Below are positions 12,675 through 40,930 of a DNA stretch of 64,000 nucleotides, piece by piece; the stretch's first letter is position 1; the number at the start of each line of letters is the position of its first letter. The translations under genes were made by a program, and so were the position numbers. The notes beneath the pieces were generated by a model. The model did not search any database and was not told the origin of the DNA. It saw only the letters and a list, made by a program, of their open reading frames with translations. Source of the stretch: Arthrobacter stackebrandtii (lineage in GTDB: Bacteria; Actinomycetota; Actinomycetes; Actinomycetales; Micrococcaceae); the NCBI RefSeq assembly GCF_017876675.1, contig NZ_JAGIOI010000001.1:806001-870000 (forward strand), written 5' to 3'.

Positions 12675-14576
12675 CTAGCCGGCGTCCGGCGCCTCGGCAT
12701 CCGCCACGGCGGCGACGGCCTGGGCGAACTGGGTGTCGTGCAGCTCGGCGTAGCGCCCGCCCCGGACAATGAGCTCGTCGTGCGTGCCGCGTTCCACAAT
12801 GGTGCCGCCCTCCAGGACCAGGATCATGTCGGCGGAGCGGATCGTGGAGAGCCGGTGCGCAATGACCAGCGCAGTGCGCCCCTCGAGTGCCTCACCCAGG
12901 GCCGCCTGCACGGCGGCCTCGTTCGTGGAGTCCAGTGCCGCCGTTGCCTCGTCCAGGATCACGACGGCGGGCTGCACCAGCAGGAGCCGGGCAATGGTCA
13001 GGCGCTGGCGTTCGCCGCCGGAGAGCCGGTAGCCGCGCTCGCCCACCACGGTGTCCAGGCCGTCGGGCAGCGCCTCGGCAAACGCAGAGAGCCGGGCACG
13101 CTTGAGCACATCCCAAATTTCGGCGTCCGTGGCATCGGGCTTGGCCAGCTGGAGGTTGGAGCGGATGGACTCGTGGAACAGGTGCCCGTCCTGGGTGACC
13201 ATGCCGACGCCGGCGCGCAGCCCGTCAAAGGACAGGTCCCGCACGTCCACGCCGCCGAGGCGCACGGTGCCGGAATCGACGTCGTACAGCCGGGACAAAA
13301 GCTGGGCAATGGTCGACTTGCCGGCGCCGGAGGAGCCCACGAGGGCCACGGTCTGGCCGGGCTCGGCGCGGAAGGAGATCCCGTGCAGGACCTCTTCGCC
13401 GCCGCGGGTGTCCAGCACGGCCACGTCCTCCAGGGACGCCAGCGAGACCTTGTCGGCCGAGGGGTAGCCGAAGCGGACGTCGCTGAACTCAACGGCGAGC
13501 GGCCCTGCCGGCACAGCCACCGTGGTCTCCTTCTCGGCGATGAGCGGCTTGAGGTCAAGGATCTCAAACACCCGGTCAAAGGAGACCAGCGCGCTCATGA
13601 TGTCCACGCGGGCGTTGGCCAGGGCGGTGAGCGGGGCGTAAAGGCGGGTCAGCAGCAGTGCCAGCACCACGACGTCGCCCGCGTTGAGCGTCCCGCCGAT
13701 GGCCAGTGCGCCGCCCAGGCCGTAGACCAGGGCCAGCGCCAGGGAGGAGACCAGCATGAGCGCCGTGAAGAACACGAACTGCATGATGGCCGTGCGCACG
13801 CCGATATCGCGGACGCGGCTGGCGCGGGCGGCAAATTCGCGGGATTCCTCGGCGGGGCGGCCAAACAGCTTGACCAGCGTGGCGCCCGGCGCGGAGAAGC
13901 GCTCGGTCATCTGGGTGCTCATGTCGGCGTTGAGGTCGGCGGCCTCGCGGCGCAGCCCGGCCAGCCGGCGGCCAAAGCGGCGGGCCGGCATGAGGAAGAT
14001 CGGCAGCAGCACCAGCGCCAGCAGCGTCACGAGCCAGGAGGTGTTGAGCATGACAATGAGCGTCAGGACCAGCTGCACCGAGTTGGACACGATGCCGGAG
14101 AGCGTGCCGGAGAAGGCCTGCTGCGCGCCGATGACGTCGTTGTTCAGGCGGCTGACCAACGCGCCCGTGCGGGTGCGGGTGAAGAACGCGATCGGCATGC
14201 GCTGCACGTGGTCAAACACGGCCGTGCGCAGGTCCAGGATGACTCCCTCGCCCAGGTTCGCGGAAATCCAGCGAATCACCAGCGACAACCCGGCATCCAG
14301 CACGGCCACCAGGGCAATCAGCCCGGCCAGGCGCACCACCACGTCCAGGGCCGATTTCGCCACAATGGCATCAACCACCTGCCCGGCCAGCACCGGCGTT
14401 GCCACGGCGAGGGCTGCGGAGACCACGGACAGCACCACAAACACCAGCAGCTTGCGGCTGTAGGGCTTGGCAAAGCGGATCGTGCGGCGCAAGGTGTCCT
14501 TGGAGATGCCGCCGTTGGACTTGTCCGAGCGCATGGTGCTCCAAAGTGAGCTCCAGGCCGCGCCTTCCATACTCAT
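12675..14576 (-). CDS. ABC exporter with fused membrane and ATPase domains
   Basis: A 633-residue type IV (MsbA-like) half-transporter. The six-helix membrane domain spans about residues 35-320, and the ATPase domain about 350-605 with Walker A GSSGAGKST, signature LSGGERQRLT, Walker B VVILDEATAALD and the switch His in IAHRLST. It likely works as a homodimer pumping lipids, peptides or drugs outward; the substrate is unknown. The start ATG at 14576 follows AAAGGA. The unusual insert between residues 370 and 395 (about DKVSLASLEDVAVLDTRGGE) separates the first ATPase strand from the rest. It stands alone, with no partner half-transporter beside it. Confidence 0.88.
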   Translation of the reverse strand: MSMEGAAWSSLWSTMRSDKSNGGISKDTLRRTIRFAKPYSRKLLVFVVLSVVSAALAVATPVLAGQVVDAIVAKSALDVVVRLAGLIALVAVLDAGLSLVIRWISANLGEGVILDLRTAVFDHVQRMPIAFFTRTRTGALVSRLNNDVIGAQQAFSGTLSGIVSNSVQLVLTLIVMLNTSWLVTLLALVLLPIFLMPARRFGRRLAGLRREAADLNADMSTQMTERFSAPGATLVKLFGRPAEESREFAARASRVRDIGVRTAIMQFVFFTALMLVSSLALALVYGLGGALAIGGTLNAGDVVVLALLLTRLYAPLTALANARVDIMSALVSFDRVFEILDLKPLIAEKETTVAVPAGPLAVEFSDVRFGYPSADKVSLASLEDVAVLDTRGGEEVLHGISFRAEPGQTVALVGSSGAGKSTIAQLLSRLYDVDSGTVRLGGVDVRDLSFDGLRAGVGMVTQDGHLFHESIRSNLQLAKPDATDAEIWDVLKRARLSAFAEALPDGLDTVVGERGYRLSGGERQRLTIARLLLVQPAVVILDEATAALDSTNEAAVQAALGEALEGRTALVIAHRLSTIRSADMILVLEGGTIVERGTHDELIVRGGRYAELHDTQFAQAVAAVADAEAPDAG

Positions 14577-16426: not shown

Positions 16427-17255
16427 GTCGGGTTCGCCCGCCGATTCCGGCATGGGCGGCGCCGCCGGCCCCGCCCTTGAAGTCCGCGGCCTGGCCAAGT
16501 CTTTCGGCACCAACCAGGTGTTGCGCGGGATCGACCTCACCGTGCCCCGCGGCAAGGTGGTGGCGCTGATCGGCCCCTCCGGCTCGGGCAAGACCACCGT
16601 GCTGCGCTCGCTCAACGGCTTGGAGACGCCCGACGCCGGAACCGTCACCGTGGGTGCCTCCGGCGTGTCCGGGCTGCCCGCCCTGACGGTCGATTTCAGT
16701 GATGCCGGGGTGCCGAAGAAGGCCCACTCCCGGCAGGTGGCGGAACTGCGGGACCGCAGCGCCATGGTGTTCCAGCACTACAACCTCTTCCCGCACATGA
16801 CGGTGCTGCAAAACGTCATTGAGGGTCCGGTGCAGGTGCAGAAGCGCCCGCGCGCCGAGGCTGTTGCCGACGCCGAGGCCCTGCTGGCCCGGGTCGGCCT
16901 GGCCGACAAACGCGACGTCTACCCCTTTGAGCTTTCCGGCGGGCAGCAGCAGCGCGTGGGCATAGTCCGCGCCCTGGCGCTGAAGCCCCAGCTGCTGCTC
17001 TTCGACGAGCCCACGTCCGCCCTGGATCCCGAACTGGTGGACGACGTCCTGGCCGTGATCAAGGAACTGGCCGACGAAGGCTGGACCATGGTCATCGTCA
17101 CCCACGAGCTTGCCTTTGCCCGGCAGACCGCGGACGAGGTGGTGTTCATGGCCGGCGGCGTCGTGGTGGAGCGCGGCCCGGCGGCGCAGGTGCTGCGCAA
17201 TCCCCGGGAAGAACGCACCCAGGCCTTCGTCCGCCGGCTCCTCCACGAGCTCTAG
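16413..17255 (+). CDS. Amino-acid ABC transporter ATPase
   Basis: A 280-residue ATPase with Walker [10 protein letters not shown], a Q-loop in [17 protein letters not shown], the signature LSGGQQQR, Walker [15 protein letters not shown] and the switch His in VTHELAFAR. The family matches the polar amino-acid uptake group. An insert of about 30 residues after the first beta strands ([20 protein letters not shown]) is longer than usual. The ATG at 16413 was chosen for its AGAGG site; a TTG at 16392 is also in frame. Confidence 0.9.
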
Positions 17256-17266
17256 CCCCCAACAAA

Positions 17267-17364
17267 CCAACGCCGCATCAGATAAGCCGCCCTATTCCCC
17301 AACGCGGCATCACATAAACAGCCTTTTTGGCGAACGCCGCAAGCGCTACATAGCACGCGACATC
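17267..17364 (+). repeat. 32-bp tandem repeat cluster 1 (three units)
   Basis: Three units start at 17269, 17301 and 17333, exactly 32 bases apart. Unit 1 opens AACGCCGCATCAGATAA, unit 2 AACGCGGCATCACATAA, and unit 3 is degenerate (AACGCCGCAAGCGCTAC). It lies just after the ABC ATPase stop and in the tail of the convergent tetR gene's downstream region. The same three-unit pattern recurs at 20635 and, inverted, at 21784. Confidence 0.85.
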
Positions 17365-17423
17365 TTCCGCCAACTCGAGAAGATATTCGCTTGACAACCA
17401 ACATAAAAGGGTCACATCCGGAG

Positions 17424-18074
17424 TCACGGCGCGTGCAGCAGCGGCAGCACCACTTCGTCCACAAGTTCGACCAGGAACTCGTCGCCGATGCCGGACTTCA
17501 TAAGCCATTCATGGCGGATCAGGTTGTGCCCGGCTTCAAGCCGCAGCTCGGAAATGGCCGCACTGGCGAGCTCCCCGCGATCTGCCGCCCGCTCGGCCAG
17601 CAAGCGCATGATGGCCAGGTTGCGGCCCCTGGCACGGTTGCTGAACTGTTCCGCCATGGCGGGGTCGCGCAAGGTGTCGCTGAGCATGCCCTTCAGTGCC
17701 TTGCCTGCAGGGCCGGAAAGGCCCACCACCAGCAGCCGGTAGTGGTTCAGGATGTCTCCGCGCAAAGTGCCGGTCTGGTGGGGCTCTCCCGGATCCAGCA
17801 GGCTCGATTTCACCGCATCGATGATCAGTTCAGCCTTGCCCGGCCAACGCCTGTAGAGGGAGGCCTTGCTGACCTGGGCGCGACTGGCAATGGACGCCAT
17901 GCTCAACGGTGCGTACCCGGATTCGTCGAGTTCTGCCAATGCGGCGTCGAAGATGGCCGCCAGCAATTGTTCGCCCCTCCGGCGTGGTTTGCCCCGGTGG
18001 TCGGCCGCTGGGATTCCTTGGCGGTCGGCGGCCGCTGGATTGCCGCTCCGGGCGGCTGGGGGAACGTGGTTCAT
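17424..18074 (-). CDS. TetR-family repressor linked to the phosphotransferase gene
   Basis: A 216-residue protein. After a basic N-terminus, the helix-turn-helix lies at about residues 33-80 (TVAS-like SMASIASRAQVSKASLYRRWPGKAELI), followed by a helical ligand-binding domain. Its start overlaps the stop of the upstream phosphotransferase gene as ATGA, so both are one transcript. A perfect palindrome in the promoter of that operon (20575-20595) is its probable binding site, giving self-repression relieved by an unknown small molecule. Confidence 0.85.
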   Translation of the reverse strand: MNHVPPAARSGNPAAADRQGIPAADHRGKPRRRGEQLLAAIFDAALAELDESGYAPLSMASIASRAQVSKASLYRRWPGKAELIIDAVKSSLLDPGEPHQTGTLRGDILNHYRLLVVGLSGPAGKALKGMLSDTLRDPAMAEQFSNRARGRNLAIMRLLAERAADRGELASAAISELRLEAGHNLIRHEWLMKSGIGDEFLVELVDEVVLPLLHAP

Positions 18075-20533
18075 GCCAGATCAGCCCCCGACACCAGCCC
18101 CGTGGTGCCATCGACGGTCACGCGCTGCCCGTCGCGCAGGACCGAGGTTCCCGTTCCGGTTCCCATGATGGCCGAGAGTCCGTATTCCCGGGCGACTATG
18201 GCGGCGTGCGACGCCGCGCCACCCGTGTCGACGATGACACCGGCTGCTATCTGGAACAGCGGGGTCCAGCTGGGATTGGTGTAGGGACAGACCATGATTT
18301 CGCCCTGCAGGAGGCGCGAAAAATCACCAGGCCCGCGGATGATGCGCACTGCACCTGTGGCACGGCCTCCCCCGGCCGGCGTGCCGGAGACGAGGCTGCC
18401 ACCCTTGTCACGGCCGGCCTTCAGCGTTAGAGGTGAGATGAGCGGGGCTCCGGCCAGCAGGGCACGCCGCCGCATCCGGTCCTCGACGAGGGCACGAAGA
18501 TCGGCCTTTCGTCCCTGCGTGAGCGTGGCCGGTTCCTGGATTCCGGTGACTTCCTCGAGCCTCAAATGGAATACGGCGTCTGCCGACGGGAGAATTCCTG
18601 CATCCGTGAGCCTGGCCCCGGCTTCAAGCATGGCGTGGCGGATGGGCGGGACCAGGCGCATGGCGTGGAAGTGGCTGTCTTCACGGAATGCAATGCCGCT
18701 GCGCGTGCCCCGGGCCGCGGAAGCAATGGCGGCCCGGAGCCGGCCCGGCACACGCGTGCGGCCCGCCACCCGCAGCTCGGCGACCCCTGCCCGGTCTTCT
18801 TGCCCAACCGGTTCGGGCTGGTCAAGCATGGCCCGGACGGCGCCATAAAGCACGGCAGGGTCATCAACCCAGGTGGGCTCCGAAACGAGAAAGGCGCTGG
18901 TGGTTTCGCGGTGGCCGAATTCCGCCAGATAGCCGTCAATCTGCTGATGCAGGGGTGCGAACGCCGGGTCGGTGGCAATGAGGTCTCCCAGTTCCCCGGG
19001 TGAGTTGTCCAGGACCGCGGTGCGCCACTGCCTGTTGCCGGACACCGCCAGAGCCAGCCCTCGCAGCGCCCGGTTGGCGTCGCCGGTGCGCGTCGCCGTC
19101 ACCGTTGACAGGGAGGAGAACTCCCGGCCCAGGCCCGTCAGCCCCAACAAGACCTTCAGCCGTGCCAGTTCAAAACCAACCCGGGGCAGGTAGTCGATGC
19201 GCAGCGTGATGAACCCGTCAAGGACTGCCATCGCCCTGCGCGGGACGTCCACGAGCTCGGCCCACGCCATTCCCGACACATCCAGCCGGGACAGCTCGGC
19301 GGCGTCGCTGTCGAAGGCAAGGAAGCGTGCGTCCTGCATCCAGTTCGAGGGTCGGAAGCGGCGAATTTTCGGCACCAGCCGGAACGGGGCAGTGAGCGTG
19401 TGCACGGTCGGGCGCGGGCGCGGCGGCACCATTTCCTGCACCACGCCGCGAGACTCCGGCAGGATGTCCTCGATGGACAGCTCAATTCCCGGAATCTCCG
19501 CCATCATCCGGGTCAGAATGCGGCCATGGCCGTGCACGGTCCAGCTGGACATGTCGAGGGGGTACGGACGCACGGGCAGCAGTTCGGCAATGATGCCTGT
19601 CATGAGTTTCCGCAGCGGGTTGACCTCCACCGGCGCAGGAGGGACGGCGGTGAGCGGGCGGGCCTGGACAATCCACAAACGGTCCCCGGCCATGGCCCAC
19701 TCGATGTCCTGCGGGCCGCCAAAGTGTTGTTCGATGCGGGAGCAGACCTCGGCCAGCCGCAGCAGCGCCGACTCTCCCAGCGGGGGCGATTCGGTGCCGC
19801 CGCGCTGGGACTCGGTTCCGCCGTCGGGCTTGGACCGGATGACCACCTCGCGCAGGCCGGCCTGGCGGGAGAGGACCCGGCCGTCGCGGGAAAGCACGAA
19901 CTGGTCGGGTGTCACCAGGCCGGACACCACCGCCTCGCCCAGGCCGGCGCTGGCGTTGACGACGATTTCGCTGCGCACGCCGGTGACCGGGTTGGCTGTG
20001 AAGGCAACCCCGGCGGTGTCGGCGTCGACCATGGCCTGGACGACGACGGCGATCTGCACCTGTGCGTGGTCGATGCCCGCCTTGTTGCGGTAGGCGACGG
20101 CGCGGTCGGTCCAAAGCGACGCCCAGCACCGGCGCACCGCATCGACGACTTCCGGCTCCCCCATGATGTTCAGGAAGCTGTCCTGCTGACCGGCGAACGT
20201 TGCACCGGGGAGGTCCTCGGCAGTGGCACTCGAGCGCACGGCCACGGGGCCGGATCCCAGCCTGCGGTAAGCGTCCAGGATGGCCGCGGCGACGTTGTCG
20301 GGGACCGGTGCGGCCGCGATGGCGCCGCGCAAGCCGCCGGCAGCCGTGCCGGTGGCGAGACCGGCCGCGTCGATGGCGGCGCGGTAGCTGGCGGTCAGGA
20401 CGACGAAGCCGTCGGGCACGGCAAACCCGCCGCGGATCAGTTCACCGAGGTTGGCTGCCTTGCCTCCGGCCATGCCGAGGTCGCCGCGCCCGACCTGCGC
20501 GAGCCCCGCCACCAGTGCATCCTGTGTGCCCAT
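18071..20533 (-). CDS. rph: Rifampin-phosphotransferase-like (PEP-synthase-family) enzyme
   Basis: An 820-residue enzyme with an N-terminal ATP-binding domain (about 1-290; VRSSATAEDLPGATFAGQQDSFLN, ENPVTG-like ANPVTGV and DIEWA motifs), a middle helical domain (about 310-690) and a C-terminal swivelling His domain with GGAASHAAIVARE (His776). PEP synthases carry a PEP-binding barrel after the His domain; here the protein ends there, which is the order of rifampin phosphotransferase (ATP domain, drug domain, His domain). Such enzymes inactivate rifamycins by transferring the beta-phosphate of ATP. The drug specificity is inferred. It is co-transcribed with a TetR, and GGGGAG precedes the ATG. 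Confidence 0.75.
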   Translation of the reverse strand: MGTQDALVAGLAQVGRGDLGMAGGKAANLGELIRGGFAVPDGFVVLTASYRAAIDAAGLATGTAAGGLRGAIAAAPVPDNVAAAILDAYRRLGSGPVAVRSSATAEDLPGATFAGQQDSFLNIMGEPEVVDAVRRCWASLWTDRAVAYRNKAGIDHAQVQIAVVVQAMVDADTAGVAFTANPVTGVRSEIVVNASAGLGEAVVSGLVTPDQFVLSRDGRVLSRQAGLREVVIRSKPDGGTESQRGGTESPPLGESALLRLAEVCSRIEQHFGGPQDIEWAMAGDRLWIVQARPLTAVPPAPVEVNPLRKLMTGIIAELLPVRPYPLDMSSWTVHGHGRILTRMMAEIPGIELSIEDILPESRGVVQEMVPPRPRPTVHTLTAPFRLVPKIRRFRPSNWMQDARFLAFDSDAAELSRLDVSGMAWAELVDVPRRAMAVLDGFITLRIDYLPRVGFELARLKVLLGLTGLGREFSSLSTVTATRTGDANRALRGLALAVSGNRQWRTAVLDNSPGELGDLIATDPAFAPLHQQIDGYLAEFGHRETTSAFLVSEPTWVDDPAVLYGAVRAMLDQPEPVGQEDRAGVAELRVAGRTRVPGRLRAAIASAARGTRSGIAFREDSHFHAMRLVPPIRHAMLEAGARLTDAGILPSADAVFHLRLEEVTGIQEPATLTQGRKADLRALVEDRMRRRALLAGAPLISPLTLKAGRDKGGSLVSGTPAGGGRATGAVRIIRGPGDFSRLLQGEIMVCPYTNPSWTPLFQIAAGVIVDTGGAASHAAIVAREYGLSAIMGTGTGTSVLRDGQRVTVDGTTGLVSGADLA

Positions 20534-20574
20534 GCCAACTCCCCGTTGTGTCCCGGCAGGTCAAACCCGCCAAA

Positions 20575-20595
20575 TAGAGTACCACCAGTACTCTA
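20575..20595. promoter_or_regulatory. Palindromic operator of the rph-tetR operon
   Basis: The arms TAGAGTAC and GTACTCTA are perfectly complementary around CACCA. On the minus strand TACTCT inside the palindrome can act as -10 box of the operon. Position, symmetry and the linked TetR gene make it the likely repressor site. Confidence 0.7.
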
Positions 20596-20632
20596 ATTCG
20601 CAGGCTTCGGCCCCGTCAATCCCTTCCCTCCC

Positions 20633-20730
20633 CCAACGCCGCATCAGATAATCCGCGTTTGTCCCCGATCCCGCACCACATAAACGCCTGTTTTCGCGGA
20701 CCCCGCATCACCTGTGGATAACTTCTGCGG
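20633..20730 (+). repeat. 32-bp tandem repeat cluster 2 (three units), upstream of the DUF559 gene
   Basis: Units start at 20635, 20667 and 20699, 32 bases apart. Unit 1 opens AACGCCGCATCAGATAA, unit 2 GATCCCGCACCACATAA and unit 3 GACCCCGCATCA. Unit 3 also contains TGTGGATAA (20713-20721), a perfect DnaA-box sequence on the opposite strand. The cluster ends 30 bases before the DUF559 start codon and is the mirror of cluster 3 after the gene. Confidence 0.9.
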
Positions 20731-20760
20731 GGATTCCGGGATGGCGACACAATTTAACCC

Positions 20761-21711
20761 ATGGATGCCAACGATGAACTACCCAGCGACAGCACACCCT
20801 TCACCCGCGATGAGGCCCTGGCCATGGGCCTCCCTCTGGGCCGGCTCAAGGGCAAACGGCTCAAACACGTCAGCCGGGGCATCTACCGTCCGCCCGATTG
20901 GGAATTCAACCTGCGGGAGGCGGCCCGGGCGCTTTCGGCAGCGTCTCCGGGCGGCTGGATCTCACATGCCACGGCGGCCAGGATCCATGGGCTCGTCCTG
21001 CCGCCCTGGCTGTCCGATTCCGACGAGCTCCACCTGAGCAAGCCCCGGGAACTGCCGCAGCTGCGCCGCAAGGGCATCACGTCGCACAACGTCACTGCGC
21101 GCCCGGGAGAAGTCGAATTCGACGACGGGATATGGATCAGCACCCGGGCCCGTACGTGGCTCGACCTGGCCCGCGTCCTGCCCCTGCGCGACTTGGTCTG
21201 CCTGGGCGACCAGCTCATCCGGATGCCCCGGCCGGAGTTCGAAGGCCGCGGCGATCCATTCACCACGCTCAAATTTCTGCGCAGCATGGTTGACTCGCAC
21301 AAGAACCTGCAGGGGATTGTGCGCGCCCGCGAAGCCCTGGACCTGATGAGGGTGGGTGCCGATTCACCGCCCGAAACCCTGTTGCGCCTGGCCATGGCGG
21401 ACGCCAACCTGCCCGAGCCAGAACTCCAGCTGAAACTCCGGGACAGCCGCAATTCGCCGTCGGCCGATGCGGGCTACCGTACACTCCGCATCGCCCTCCA
21501 GTACGACGGTGCCCATCACCTCAATGAGATCCAGCGCCTCAAGGACCACCACCGGGACAAGGCCTTCATGGCCGCCGGTTGGACGGTGCTGAAATTCACC
21601 GACCGTGACCTCAATGAGGGTTTCCAGGATGCCGTCCGGCGCATCAAGGGGGCGTTGCGGCAAGCCCATGTCGATCCCACCGTGGAATCGGGTTTTGCTT
21701 CGGGCAGCTGA
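20761..21711 (+). CDS. Winged-helix + DUF559 (Vsr-like nuclease fold) protein
   Basis: A 316-residue protein. The N-terminus (about 12-60; FTRDEALAMG, LKHVSRGIYR) resembles the winged-helix part of AbiEi-type antitoxins, and the C-terminus (about 225-305) resembles DUF559, a relative of Vsr endonuclease: DAGYRTLRIALQYDGAHH, a helix with KDHHRDKAFMAAGW and the VLKFTDRDL strand. The position usually Glu before YDG is Gln here, which could weaken nuclease activity. It lies between two inverted clusters of 32-bp repeats, the downstream one overlapping the stop codon. The function is unknown; a role linked to these repeats is a hypothesis. Confidence 0.75.
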   Translation: MDANDELPSDSTPFTRDEALAMGLPLGRLKGKRLKHVSRGIYRPPDWEFNLREAARALSAASPGGWISHATAARIHGLVLPPWLSDSDELHLSKPRELPQLRRKGITSHNVTARPGEVEFDDGIWISTRARTWLDLARVLPLRDLVCLGDQLIRMPRPEFEGRGDPFTTLKFLRSMVDSHKNLQGIVRAREALDLMRVGADSPPETLLRLAMADANLPEPELQLKLRDSRNSPSADAGYRTLRIALQYDGAHHLNEIQRLKDHHRDKAFMAAGWTVLKFTDRDLNEGFQDAVRRIKGALRQAHVDPTVESGFASGS

Positions 21712-21784
21712 TGCGGCGTGCTGAAAAGCGGCCGTTTATCTGATGCCGCGTCGGGGAAAACAGCGACTTATCTGATGCGGCGTT
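21689..21784 (-). repeat. 32-bp tandem repeat cluster 3 (three units, inverted)
   Basis: Read on the minus strand, units begin at 21784, 21752 and 21720, 32 bases apart. They open AACGCCGCATCAGATAA, GACGCGGCATCAGATAA and CACGCCGCATCA. The innermost unit includes the TGA stop (21709-21711) of the DUF559 gene. Together with cluster 2 it forms inverted ends of a 1.15-kb segment. Confidence 0.9.
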
Positions 21785-21812
21785 GGAGCAGGGGTGGGGC
21801 GGGGGAAGCTGG

Positions 21813-22646
21813 TCAGCCGATGCGGCCGGGGTGCGTGTACACGTTCAGGGTCTCGCCGCGGCTGAACCCCACCAGCGTCACCCCGCTGCTTTGGGCCAGT
21901 TCAACAGCCAGGGACGACGGCGCACTCACCGCCGCGAGAACCGGCACCCCCACCATCGCCGCCTTTTGAACGAGCTCAAAGGAGGCGCGGCCGGAAACCT
22001 GCAGGACGGTCTCCGACAAGGGCAGTCGCCTTTCGCGGAATGAGGCACCCACCACCTTGTCCACGGCGTTGTGCCGGCCCACGTCCTCGCGCAGCATGAG
22101 CAGTTCGCCGTCGGGGGCAAACAGGCCCGCCGCGTGGACTCCCCCGGTTTTCTCAAACAGCTTCTGTTGTTCGCGCAGGGTTTCCGGCAGCGCCGCCAGC
22201 ACATCCGCAGCGATAAGCACCTGGTCCACCGGTGCCGTGACGGCAAAGTGGGAGGACTTGTGGACGGCATCGATGGACGCCGTCCCGCAGATCCCGCAAG
22301 CACTGGAGGTCGTGACGTGGCGCTGGGCTGCCGGCAGCGGCATGGCCACATCGGGGCGCAACTGCGCCTCCACCACGTTGAAGGTCTGCTGCCCGTTCTC
22401 GTCCTCACCCGCACAGAAGCGCAGCGAAATGAGCTGGTCGGGGTCAAAGACGATGCCCTCGGACACCAGGAATCCCGCCACCAGGTCAAAGTCGTCACCC
22501 GGGGTGCGCATCGTCACCGTGAAGGACTCGTGCCCCAGCCGGATCTCCAGTGGCTCCTCCACGGCGAGCGCCTCCTCGCGGACAACACGGCGGTTGCCGC
22601 CCACATCGATCTTGGTGGCCTTGACCCTGCGAATAAGCCGTCCCAT
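21813..22646 (-). CDS. fdhD: Formate dehydrogenase accessory sulfurtransferase FdhD
   Basis: A 277-residue protein that carries sulfur to the molybdenum cofactor of formate-dehydrogenase-like enzymes. The functional CxxC motif is present as SSACGICGTAS, with the family segments DFDLVAGFLVSEGI, LMLREDVGRHNAVDKVVG and SGRASFELVQKAA. It starts at an ATG with GGGAGG upstream and faces the molybdopterin oxidoreductase gene, its likely client, across a 65-bp gap. Confidence 0.95.
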   Translation of the reverse strand: MGRLIRRVKATKIDVGGNRRVVREEALAVEEPLEIRLGHESFTVTMRTPGDDFDLVAGFLVSEGIVFDPDQLISLRFCAGEDENGQQTFNVVEAQLRPDVAMPLPAAQRHVTTSSACGICGTASIDAVHKSSHFAVTAPVDQVLIAADVLAALPETLREQQKLFEKTGGVHAAGLFAPDGELLMLREDVGRHNAVDKVVGASFRERRLPLSETVLQVSGRASFELVQKAAMVGVPVLAAVSAPSSLAVELAQSSGVTLVGFSRGETLNVYTHPGRIG

Positions 22647-22711
22647 GAAAACCTCCCAAATACCAAACCGTCTATCATCAGACTAGATGCTCCACGATGA
22701 AGGGACCCATC

Positions 22712-25042
22712 ATGGCTGGCAAAGCGCCCCGGGAAAACATTGACGAACAGCAAATCACGATTGGCAGTGCGCAAAAGAAAGCCGTGGGAATCCCCGGCAT
22801 CCTGCACTCCATGGAGGTCTCGCTCAAGCAGATGGGCCCGGTCCGCACGGCCCAGACCCTGCTGAAAATCAACCAGAAGGACGGCTTCGACTGCCCCGGC
22901 TGCGCCTGGCCCGAACCGGACAAGCGGCACACCGCGGAGTTTTGCGAGAACGGGGCCAAGGCGGTCGCCGAGGAAGCCACCAAAAGGCGCGTGCCGCCGT
23001 CGTTCTTTGCAGAGCACAGCGTGCGCGAGCTGCGCGAATGGGACGACTACCGGCTGGGCCAGCAGGGCCGCCTGACCGACCCCATGTACCTGGCCGAGGG
23101 CGCCGAGCACTACGTTCCGGTGTCGTGGGAGCGGGCACTGGGGGTCCTGGCGGACGAGCTCAAGGCGCTCAAGAGCCCCGACGAGGCCATTTTCTACACG
23201 TCGGGCCGCACCTCCAACGAGGCCGCGTTCCTGTACCAGCTCATGGTCCGCGGGTTGGGCACCAACAACCTGCCGGACTGCTCCAACATGTGCCACGAGT
23301 CGAGCGGTTCCGCCCTGACGGAGACCATTGGGATCGGCAAGGGCTCGGTGTCCCTGGAGGACATCTACCAGTCGGAGCTGATCCTGATTGCCGGCCAGAA
23401 CCCCGGCACCAACCACCCCCGCATGCTCACCGCGCTGGAGAAGGCGAAGAAGAACGGGGCGGTGATCGTCGCGATCAACCCGCTGCCCGAGGCCGGGCTG
23501 ATGCGTTTTGAAAACCCGCAGACCATCCGCGGCCTGGTGGGCGGCGGCACCCCCCTGGCCGACGACTTCCTGCAGATCAAGCTCGGCGGCGACCAGGCGC
23601 TGTTCCAGGGGTTGGGCAAATTCCTGTTGGAAGAGCAGCGCCGCCCCGGCTCCCCCAACGCCGGCCGCATCTTCGACACCGCGTTCATAGACGACCACAC
23701 CACGGGATTCGAAGAGTATTTGGCACAACTGAGCCACGTCAGTTGGGATGAGATCGTCACAGCCACCGGGCTCACCGAGGCGCAGATCCGCGCCACCGGC
23801 GAACGCCTCCTCGCGTCCAAGGCCACCGTGGTCTGCTGGGCCATGGGCCTGACACAGCACAAGCACTCGGTGGCCATGCTGCGCGACATCGTCAACGTGC
23901 TGCTCCTGCAGGGCAACATTGGCAAGCCCGGCGCCGGCGTGTGCCCGGTCCGCGGCCACTCCAACGTCCAGGGCGACCGCACCATGGGCATCTTCGAGCG
24001 CATGCCGGCCGCCTTCCACGACGCCCTGGACCGCGAATTCTCCTTCACCTCCCCGCGCCCCGACGGCTTCGACACCGTCGCCGCGATCGAGGCCATGCGC
24101 GACGGCCTGGCCGGCGTCTTCCTTGGCATGGGCGGCAACTTTGTCCGCGCCACACCGGACTCCGCCGTCACCGAGGCCGCACTGAACAAGCTCTCCCTGA
24201 CGGCGCAGATCTCCACCAAGCTGAACAAGTCGCACCTCATCACGGGCCGCTCGGCCCTCATCCTGCCCACCCTCGGCCGCACCGAGCGCGACACCCAGGC
24301 CACCGGAGACCAGCGCGTCACGGTCGAGGATTCCATGAGCGCCGTGCACGCCTCGCGCGGGCGCCTTGCCCCGGCGTCGGACAACCTGCTCTCCGAGGTG
24401 GCCATCGTCTGCCGCCTCGCCAAGCTGCTGTTTTCCACGGACGACGGCGGCACCCGCCCGGGTGCGCCCCTCGCCGACTGGGACGCCCTGGCAGGCGACT
24501 ACAGCCTGATCCGCACCCACATTGCGGCAGTGATCCCCGGCTTTGAGGACTTCGAGGCAAAGATTGACGTGCCCGGCGGCTTTGTTTTGCCACACGGCCC
24601 CCGCGACTCCAGGACATTCACCACCGAATCCGGGCTGGCCCATTTCACGGCCAACGAGCTCGAATACCCCAAGGTGCCGAAGGGGCGGCTGCTGCTGCAG
24701 ACCCTGCGCTCCCACGACCAGTACAACACCACCATCTACGGCAAGGACGACAGGTACCGCGGCATCAAGAACGGGCGCCGCGTGGTGTTCGTAAACCAGA
24801 AGGACCTGGACGCGTTCGGCATCGCCGACGGCGCCATGGTTGACCTGGTCTCCGAGTGGAAGGACGGCGTGGACCGCCGCGCCCCCGACTTCCGCGTCGT
24901 GGCCTATTCAACGCCCGTGGGCTGCGCCGCCGCGTACTACCCGGAAACCAACGTCCTTGTGCCGCTGGACTCCAAGGCCGATGTCAGCGGAACACCAACC
25001 TCCAAGTCGGTGGTAATCCGCCTGGAGCCCGTCGCGTCCTGA
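22712..25042 (+). CDS. FdhF/YdeP-type molybdopterin oxidoreductase
   Basis: A 776-residue molybdopterin enzyme of the YdeP branch of the formate dehydrogenase alpha-subunit family. Visible family segments are FDCPGCAWPEP near the N-terminus, TSGRTSNEAAFLYQL, NNLPDCSNMCHESSG, the GQNPGTNHPR loop and VRGHSNVQGDRTMGI. A classical four-Cys iron-sulfur motif at the N-terminus is not complete. The physiological substrate of this family is unsettled; formate is not certain. The ATG at 22712 has AAGGGA six bases upstream, while an in-frame ATG at 22697 lacks one. Divergent fdhD supports a sulfurated cofactor. Confidence 0.85.
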   Translation: MAGKAPRENIDEQQITIGSAQKKAVGIPGILHSMEVSLKQMGPVRTAQTLLKINQKDGFDCPGCAWPEPDKRHTAEFCENGAKAVAEEATKRRVPPSFFAEHSVRELREWDDYRLGQQGRLTDPMYLAEGAEHYVPVSWERALGVLADELKALKSPDEAIFYTSGRTSNEAAFLYQLMVRGLGTNNLPDCSNMCHESSGSALTETIGIGKGSVSLEDIYQSELILIAGQNPGTNHPRMLTALEKAKKNGAVIVAINPLPEAGLMRFENPQTIRGLVGGGTPLADDFLQIKLGGDQALFQGLGKFLLEEQRRPGSPNAGRIFDTAFIDDHTTGFEEYLAQLSHVSWDEIVTATGLTEAQIRATGERLLASKATVVCWAMGLTQHKHSVAMLRDIVNVLLLQGNIGKPGAGVCPVRGHSNVQGDRTMGIFERMPAAFHDALDREFSFTSPRPDGFDTVAAIEAMRDGLAGVFLGMGGNFVRATPDSAVTEAALNKLSLTAQISTKLNKSHLITGRSALILPTLGRTERDTQATGDQRVTVEDSMSAVHASRGRLAPASDNLLSEVAIVCRLAKLLFSTDDGGTRPGAPLADWDALAGDYSLIRTHIAAVIPGFEDFEAKIDVPGGFVLPHGPRDSRTFTTESGLAHFTANELEYPKVPKGRLLLQTLRSHDQYNTTIYGKDDRYRGIKNGRRVVFVNQKDLDAFGIADGAMVDLVSEWKDGVDRRAPDFRVVAYSTPVGCAAAYYPETNVLVPLDSKADVSGTPTSKSVVIRLEPVAS

Positions 25043-40859: not shown

Positions 40860-40930
40860 ATCCATGACGCAGTTGTTGTACGAAAAATACCCGGATAGCG
40901 CATTCCCAGTCCAACTACTGCGTCATGGAT
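40860..40930. repeat. 71-bp palindromic element between convergent genes
   Basis: The arms at 40860-40878 (ATCCATGACGCAGTTGTTG) and 40912-40930 are inverted copies with one mismatch in 19 bases, separated by 33 bases. There is no T-run. It has the size and shape of a REP-like or miniature element and may also end transcription from both sides. Confidence 0.65.

Follow-up and report, generated by a model that had tools for sequence, protein, structure and literature searches.

Within a 64,000-nt stretch of the Arthrobacter stackebrandtii genome (hereafter the window; the source genome, G000, is a single contig of 4.43 Mb), a gene encoding an AbiEi-like domain joined to a DUF559/Vsr-like nuclease domain lies between two inward-facing arrays of a 32-bp repeat, and a further array of the same kind stands apart from it. 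Such arrays flank most close homologues of the gene, matching arrays are dispersed in most genomes tested, unit and gene are inherited together, and the arrays turn over between relatives. It is fairly probable that the repeats and the AbiEi-DUF559 protein encoded between them make up a repeat-enzyme pair, the protein binding its repeats and contributing to their maintenance or spread; that it binds, cuts or copies them is what we infer. The features concerned are as follows.

17269..17340, plus strand: cluster 1, with units 17269-17300 and 17301-17332 and a truncated third unit 17333-17340 (sequence, 17-mer scan)
20620..20634, plus strand: C/T-rich tract ahead of cluster 2 (sequence)
20635..20711, plus strand: cluster 2, with units 20635-20666 and 20667-20698 and a terminal half-unit 20699-20711 (sequence, period-32 array)
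20761..21711, plus strand: gene for a 316-amino-acid protein with an AbiEi-like half (about residues 14-138) and a DUF559/Vsr-like nuclease half (about residues 200-300) (Pfam, PADLOC, AlphaFold)
21708..21784, minus strand: cluster 3, with units 21784-21753 and 21752-21721 and a terminal half-unit 21720-21708 (sequence, scans)
21785..21801, minus strand: C/T-rich tract, in the minus-strand reading, ahead of the first unit of cluster 3, as at many arrays (sequence)

Arrays in the window and across the genome

Each of the three clusters has a pair of full 32-bp units followed by a truncated third, giving six full units in total. Exact copies of the leading 17-mer start at 17269 (plus), 20635 (plus) and 21784 (minus), with two-mismatch copies at 17301 (plus) and 21752 (minus); at up to three mismatches the window holds these five matches, against a shuffle mean of 0.14, and none of 100 shuffles reached five. 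The scan missed the second unit of cluster 2, at 20667, because five of its positions differ from the 17-mer. Both the sequence and the comparison with shuffles thus confirm the three clusters located by the first-pass annotation of this DNA, which had counted nine units in three groups; those at 17333, 20699 and 21720 (minus) are truncated last units, and the fixed order of unit types 1, 2 and 3 that it read within each cluster is really a number of units plus a truncated end. The half of the unit that it read as varying is not free to do so, TTT at unit positions 25-27 being conserved at 77-81% per column among 90 units.

As the same annotation had described, clusters 2 and 3 face the DUF559 gene. 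Cluster 2 lies 5' of the gene and is directed toward it, and the half-unit of cluster 3 overlaps its stop codon, that cluster also lying just past the stop of a convergent gene (FdhD-like by eye). Cluster 1 is a solo array, 13 bp past the end of an ABC-transporter ATPase gene (named by eye), and is spanned by a single alignment to genome G202. Its earlier description as a gene-less copy fits; G000 has about 40 such clusters, and a type-A unit (defined below) stands at the matching place in G202 (296004). A search of Rfam across 16500-22800 gave no matches up to an E-value of 1.

Across G000, the 17-mer has six exact places and 78 at up to three mismatches, against three for the pattern read backwards. 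These copies form some 40 clusters of one to four units, in which a truncated last unit is a common ending and of which some stand head to head, 76-77 bp apart. A common frame drawn from 90 full units runs RACGC, five variable bases, CAS (required by the scan that collected these units), a variable stretch, TTT at 25-27 and C-rich sequence to the end. The first unit is often preceded by a C/T-rich tract, the 14 nt before 66 arrays having a C content of 0.57, compared with 0.40 in the 14 nt after the stop codons of 991 called genes.

A generic scan for pairs of units gave 53 matches in 744 kb of G000 (reversed control 12) and 37 in 745 kb of G202 (control 3). The G000 matches resolve into two unit families, A (GCATCASATAA) and B (TCGCASCAATGG), mixed arrays included, with the exception of one intragenic match at position 812071, which is probably due to chance and which we rejected as an array. 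Both the pair scan and the generic pattern used on whole genomes demand CA at unit positions 11-12, and both therefore miss types such as CGGTTGC, which a search with a flank-derived unit (below) did recover. Read backwards, the generic pattern gave 38 matches in G000, far above the other genomes. With genes called by a simple codon-usage caller, 10 of 66 arrays touch called open reading frames (ORFs); among the remaining 56, 48 start past the stop of a co-oriented gene, at a median distance of 29 bp, and eight lie the opposite way.

Arrays and DUF559 genes among relatives

We compared 34 close homologues of the gene from 28 genomes, leaving out L104 (near-identical to L103) and L110 (internal stop), with 827 other genes. 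In a strict scan, inward arrays were present on both sides of 19 homologues, on one side of 12 and on neither side of three; a loose scan gave 23, nine and two, respectively. None of the 827 other genes had arrays on both sides in either scan (upstream 8 and downstream 19 in the strict scan; 21 and 42 in the loose one). These figures come from running both scans on both sets, a first control having used a stricter scan than the 34-locus count. An earlier count on the 34 loci gave 25 with both sides and seven with one, the unit of window cluster 2 being entered by hand because the scan misses it. In a set of 80 named loci, overlapping partly in genomes with the 34, 75 had both flanks, and arrays were found on both sides of 34, on one side of 20 and at neither side of 21, compared with 1 of 149 control windows. 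Rescanning 22 of the 23 'none' rows (L306, a truncated one, left out) without the RACGC start, and with no separate control, recovered a period-32 repeat in 15, the other seven scoring at most 25 of 36. Clusters thus co-occur with DUF559 genes, as the first-pass annotation had proposed to check, most close homologues being flanked, each by its own unit. A second close homologue in G000 itself, 66% identical to the window protein, is bracketed by type-B arrays. We also noted two DUF559 homologues with an internal stop, L110 (G052) and L158 (G039), whose genomes contain 0 and 16 generic array matches, respectively.

The upstream and downstream units of a locus resemble each other (13.1 of 15 positions within a locus, compared with 7.2 of 15 between loci; permutation p = 5e-5). 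Six pairs of loci from the same genome share 5-10 of 15 positions and the closest proteins of other genomes share 7-15, suggesting that the unit tends to follow the gene lineage and not the genome. At 21 of 36 loci the neighbours on both sides are the same while unit types differ. The idea that gene and ends move as one unit is accordingly unsupported; the gene itself appears to have been inherited mostly vertically, and the association goes back in part to one old locus. The window copy occupies a second place, beside fdhD, common to three other genomes. By coordinates, a close homologue lies beside fdhD in 4 of 23 genomes and not in the other 19. A single empty site for the window gene beside fdhD was sought and rejected, because the neighbourhood differs among genomes, in a comparison where the downstream side of G128 could not be read and G211 and G052 were apparently taken on the wrong strand.

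Counted in 295 genomes of the family, the type-A 17-mer class (RACGCSGCATCASATAA) is abundant only in the two genomes with a type-A gene, at 50 and 24 copies, with at most one copy in each of the other 293, a count that the first-pass annotation had called for and that favours its proposal. A further unit type (CGGTTGCAACC) borders four other genes, and dispersed copies were predicted in their genomes; 74 were found in G270, 45 in G211, 44 in G076 and eight in G170, of which three to four per genome adjoin the gene itself. Among 19 other genomes, this type occurs twice in G052, once in G284 and in none of the remaining 17, with a reversed control of at most one per genome. For the 11 genomes with both listed arrays and a flank, in general with a single row for each array and excluding those less than some 3 kb from the DUF559 gene, the dispersed arrays match the flank of their own gene better than those of others (10.4 compared with 7.7; p = 5e-5). 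Family-wide, at least three tandem matches occur in 39 of 295 genomes, of which 37 have a homologue at an E-value of 1e-75, and 32 of the 35 genomes with a homologue at 1e-110 or better have at least three matches. The exceptions among these 35 are G052 (0 matches; internal stop, unit without CA), G270 (2 matches; unit without CA) and G198 (0 matches).

The places, types and unit numbers of arrays turn over between relatives. The stretches compared include 31 array sites of G000, and for 28 of them the matching place in G202 could be located. Fourteen of these hold an array there, eight of the same type (three being the gene flanks themselves) and six of another (one intragenic and probably due to chance). 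At the other 14 the scan detected none; by eye or in a looser scan, two of them do hold something, namely an array of a different type at 745837 and a type-A unit at 823269, which is window cluster 1, and several others are short empty sites, with for example 212 bp in G000 and 23 bp in G202. Two arrays were compared between a pair of genomes of about 99.5% identity, and in one of them the genomes differ by a single exact 32-bp unit. G202 additionally contains a third array type, C (TCTATCACCTTCCGGGG), in C12 and C34; at the ends of some orthologous genes it stands where G000 has type A. A different array family, whose unit measures near 30-40 bp (TTGAAACTGCAGCACCTGCGA) and which ends in a palindrome, was seen in G202:C34 at about 13805-13930 and at 253288-253413.

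Finally, we considered 14 distant DUF559 genes with 30-42% identity, one of them from Tsukamurella and the other 13 from genomes of the Arthrobacter group. The scans made found no 32-bp arrays at these genes. Palindromes scoring at least 14 were present on both sides of 7 of the 14, compared with 0 of 60 control genes, and the arms on the two sides of a distant locus resemble each other (12.4 compared with 5.4; p = 2e-4). The palindrome beside the distant paralogue at 526 kb of G000 is dispersed, with 17 strand-wise matches in 744 kb and one in the reversed control; most of the 17 are arms that pair up, their starts separated by 53 bp. The Tsukamurella palindrome has 20 strand-wise places in 8 records and that of StoSoilB13 has 11 in 2 records; each palindromic element counts about twice in such figures, because it is matched on both strands. 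The palindromes of L073 and L074 were not clearly dispersed in the stretches scanned. Matching palindromes on both sides of distant DUF559 genes, with an own motif per locus, were noted at L115, L116, L122, L074, L379, L380, L381 and L382. The window contains one element of this second repeat family.

40862..40928, no strand assigned: palindromic element (CCATGACGCAG...CTGCGTCATGG), the same as beside the distant DUF559 paralogue at 526 kb of G000 (palindrome scans)

The AbiEi-DUF559 protein, its possible action and the alternatives

The C-terminal half of the protein matches Pfam DUF559 above cut-off (residues 241-298), and the N-terminal half matches AbiEi in PADLOC (E-value 2e-13, residues 28-138). 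Residues E205, D236, H253 and D262, which we take to be active-site residues, are invariant across 37 aligned proteins. The AlphaFold model, with a predicted local distance difference test score of 87.6, matches AbiEi 6y8q (E-value 1.7e-5); compared with the catalytic domain of I-Bth0305I (3r3p) it gives a probability of 1.00 and a template-modelling score of 0.75 of the target, but an E-value of 0.023.

Taken with the flanks and the dispersed copies, this architecture suggests how such a pair could work. The AbiEi-like half would recognise the 32-bp units, its specificity most likely lying in the variable bases that separate RACGC from the TTT block; binding of the arrays is a natural step to propose because AbiEi binds repeats at its own promoter, and several molecules could share one face of the DNA, since the units lie about three helical turns apart. 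A nick or break made in the array or close to it by the Vsr/homing-endonuclease-like half would follow. Through repair or copying, arrays would gain units and be converted to the current type, and new arrays would arise at other places, mostly past stop codons, where harm would be small. The protein would thereby play the role that the REP-associated tyrosine transposases (RAYT) play for repetitive extragenic palindromic (REP) sequences, by means of an unrelated enzyme. The partnership of repeat and enzyme first suggested from the sequence is thus favoured by the restriction of type A to genomes with a type-A gene and by the flanks of close homologues, though not in the form of a gene and its ends moving together.

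Several observations weigh against this proposal. All 32 close homologues in the alignment carry Gln at position 247, where four of five distant paralogues have Glu, and the nuclease half may for this reason be inactive. The strong orientation of the arrays to 3' ends of genes is not foreseen by simple transposition, and neither target-site duplications nor clean borders of an element emerged from the comparison of G000 with G202, whose flanks are about 80-95% identical and which does not resolve borders, the closer pair G024/G284 having too few arrays. The pairing of arrays with genes is also imperfect. The own flank ranks first in only 6 of the 11 genomes and is the best match for only 84 of 180 dispersed arrays; the main dispersed type of G170 (TCCTGCAG) differs from the flank of its gene, and no cognate gene was found for it, nor for the type-C arrays of G202. 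G198 has the gene and no array matches, only 5 of 20 genomes with a best homologue between 1e-75 and 1e-110 have at least three matches, and two of 240 genomes without a homologue have at least three (G086 with 8 and G260 with 3). The 295-genome counts ignore kinship, gene and arrays both being concentrated in two genera, and the reversed control of the generic pattern, near zero in most genomes, reaches 38 against 130 in G000, 6 against 8 in G076, and 6 in G202.

Of the alternatives, the one that fares best, which we nonetheless regard as unlikely, is that the protein is an AbiEi-type repressor with an inactive nuclease half, binding arrays at its own promoter and elsewhere, as a regulon or as an insulator or roadblock terminator at 3' ends. 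According to the available part of PMC7319586, AbiEi regulates itself and binds to inverted repeats within its promoter, and both PADLOC and structure assign one half of the protein to AbiEi; arrays lie upstream of the gene, and most non-genic arrays begin shortly past the stop of a co-oriented gene. It is the Gln at 247 together with this 3'-end orientation that keeps a binding-only action on transcription alive. However, arrays lie downstream of the gene too, related species have gained, lost and retyped array sites where a regulon would be expected to stay, and many distant paralogues keep the bracketing without the array.

Still less probable is that the arrays are RNA elements of 3'-untranslated regions, terminators or stability elements, that have spread for that reason and are linked only indirectly to DUF559. 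Their orientation and distance relative to stop codons would suit such a role, as would the strong folding of head-to-head arrays (4 of 4, z -4.6 to -10.0). Six solo arrays, by contrast, fold about like shuffles (z -2.0 to 0.6), which speaks against an RNA-level role; the only terminator-like site in 17200-21900 lies away from the clusters, compared with 3.1 in shuffles, and the tracking of unit and gene would be left unexplained.

We consider it highly improbable that the gene and arrays are a defence or addiction module, in which arrays keep the nuclease harmless and DNA without arrays is attacked, or the reverse: AbiEi-family antitoxins belong to a phage-defence toxin-antitoxin system (from abstracts), and the available part of PMC12907096 describes a Caulobacter DUF559 protein, VsrA, as needed for the DNA-damage response in cells without cytosine methylase, yet no toxin partner gene was seen beside the window gene (ORF position, by eye). 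A chance that is just as slight attaches to the gene sitting in, or having repeatedly landed in, a repeat hot spot with no dealings with the repeats, as the shared neighbours of 21 of 36 genes might suggest; unit type follows gene lineage across loci and genomes, the two flanks match each other, no other gene of the 827 is bracketed, and distant paralogue loci are bracketed by other repeats.

Relation to known repeat systems and significance

Mycobacterial interspersed repetitive units are likewise short direct repeats of Actinobacteria that lie at the ends of genes, share the orientation of the gene and differ in unit number. Their unit length and sequence are different from those described here, and we know of no cognate enzyme gene for them.

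The closest parallel to a repeat-enzyme pair is the REP/REPIN-RAYT system, whose enzyme, TnpA-REP, is a Y1 HUH transposase; in the portion of PMC3733652 available, its repeats are short, with many intergenic copies, lineage-specific families and head-to-head pairs, as here. In both systems a single- or few-copy enzyme gene is bracketed by its own repeat type (here at 19-23 of 34 loci on both sides, compared with 0 of 827), and the same repeat is dispersed between genes in many copies, with the exception of G170. Unlike RAYT, the enzyme is an AbiEi-DUF559 protein. The Y1 transposase family PF01797 has no match in G000 and matches in 2 of 23 genus genomes, and a RAYT as mover of the window repeats was rejected on the absence of a match in G000. 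The repeats are directional tandem arrays of 32 bp beginning with RACGC rather than GTAG, the six solo arrays lack a fold clearly beyond shuffles, and array orientation follows the upstream gene, in each of which they differ from REP. The system would work like REP/RAYT but is not a member of it. The same portion of PMC3733652 describes CGTC-tagged REPs, intergenic palindromic repeats with a CGTC end that apparently lack a dedicated transposase; the words 'Actinobacteria', 'Arthrobacter' and 'DUF559' are absent from that text. The RepRanger paper (PMC12306157) has an Arthrobacter among its genomes, and the word RAYT is absent from the part available.

Each half of the protein also has a known counterpart. 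The DNA-binding half resembles the AbiEi antitoxin of a type IV toxin-antitoxin system (6y8q), which itself binds repeats at its own promoter (PMC7319586, in part). Unlike in AbiE, a nuclease-like domain takes the place of the antitoxin half, and no AbiEii-type nucleotidyltransferase toxin was seen beside the gene at the window locus, where the neighbours are divergent and convergent and of other kinds (ORF position, by eye). The C-terminal half has the fold of the EDxHD homing endonuclease I-Bth0305I and of Vsr (EDxHD enzymes are described in the available part of PMC3943268), and break-driven copying would be in character for it; in contrast to these enzymes, the gene does not, so far as could be seen, lie within an intron or intein, and one conserved acid is Gln. 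Spread on plasmids or phages was considered and rejected, four plasmid records and one phage record all being below 40% identity, so that no close homologue was seen in those collections. A literature search covering part of the literature found no link between DUF559 and repeats.

More tentatively, and with rather less confidence than for the pair itself, we suggest that AbiEi-DUF559 proteins may be a second, independent class of bacterial repeat-dedicated enzymes, each recognising and propagating its own repeat (32-bp arrays in one Arthrobacter subfamily, palindromes elsewhere, also in Tsukamurella), with a specificity that changes with the repeat, and that some orphan REP families may have their missing partner among them. 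These proteins form a wide and little-studied family which, with its own repeat type at both ends of the gene, would offer a candidate enzyme for repeat families without a known one. The family would provide a natural set of DNA-recognition proteins whose targets are written beside the gene, with more than 12 distinct pairs in the loci read, and would be a test bed for the co-evolution of selfish or domesticated enzymes and their repeats.

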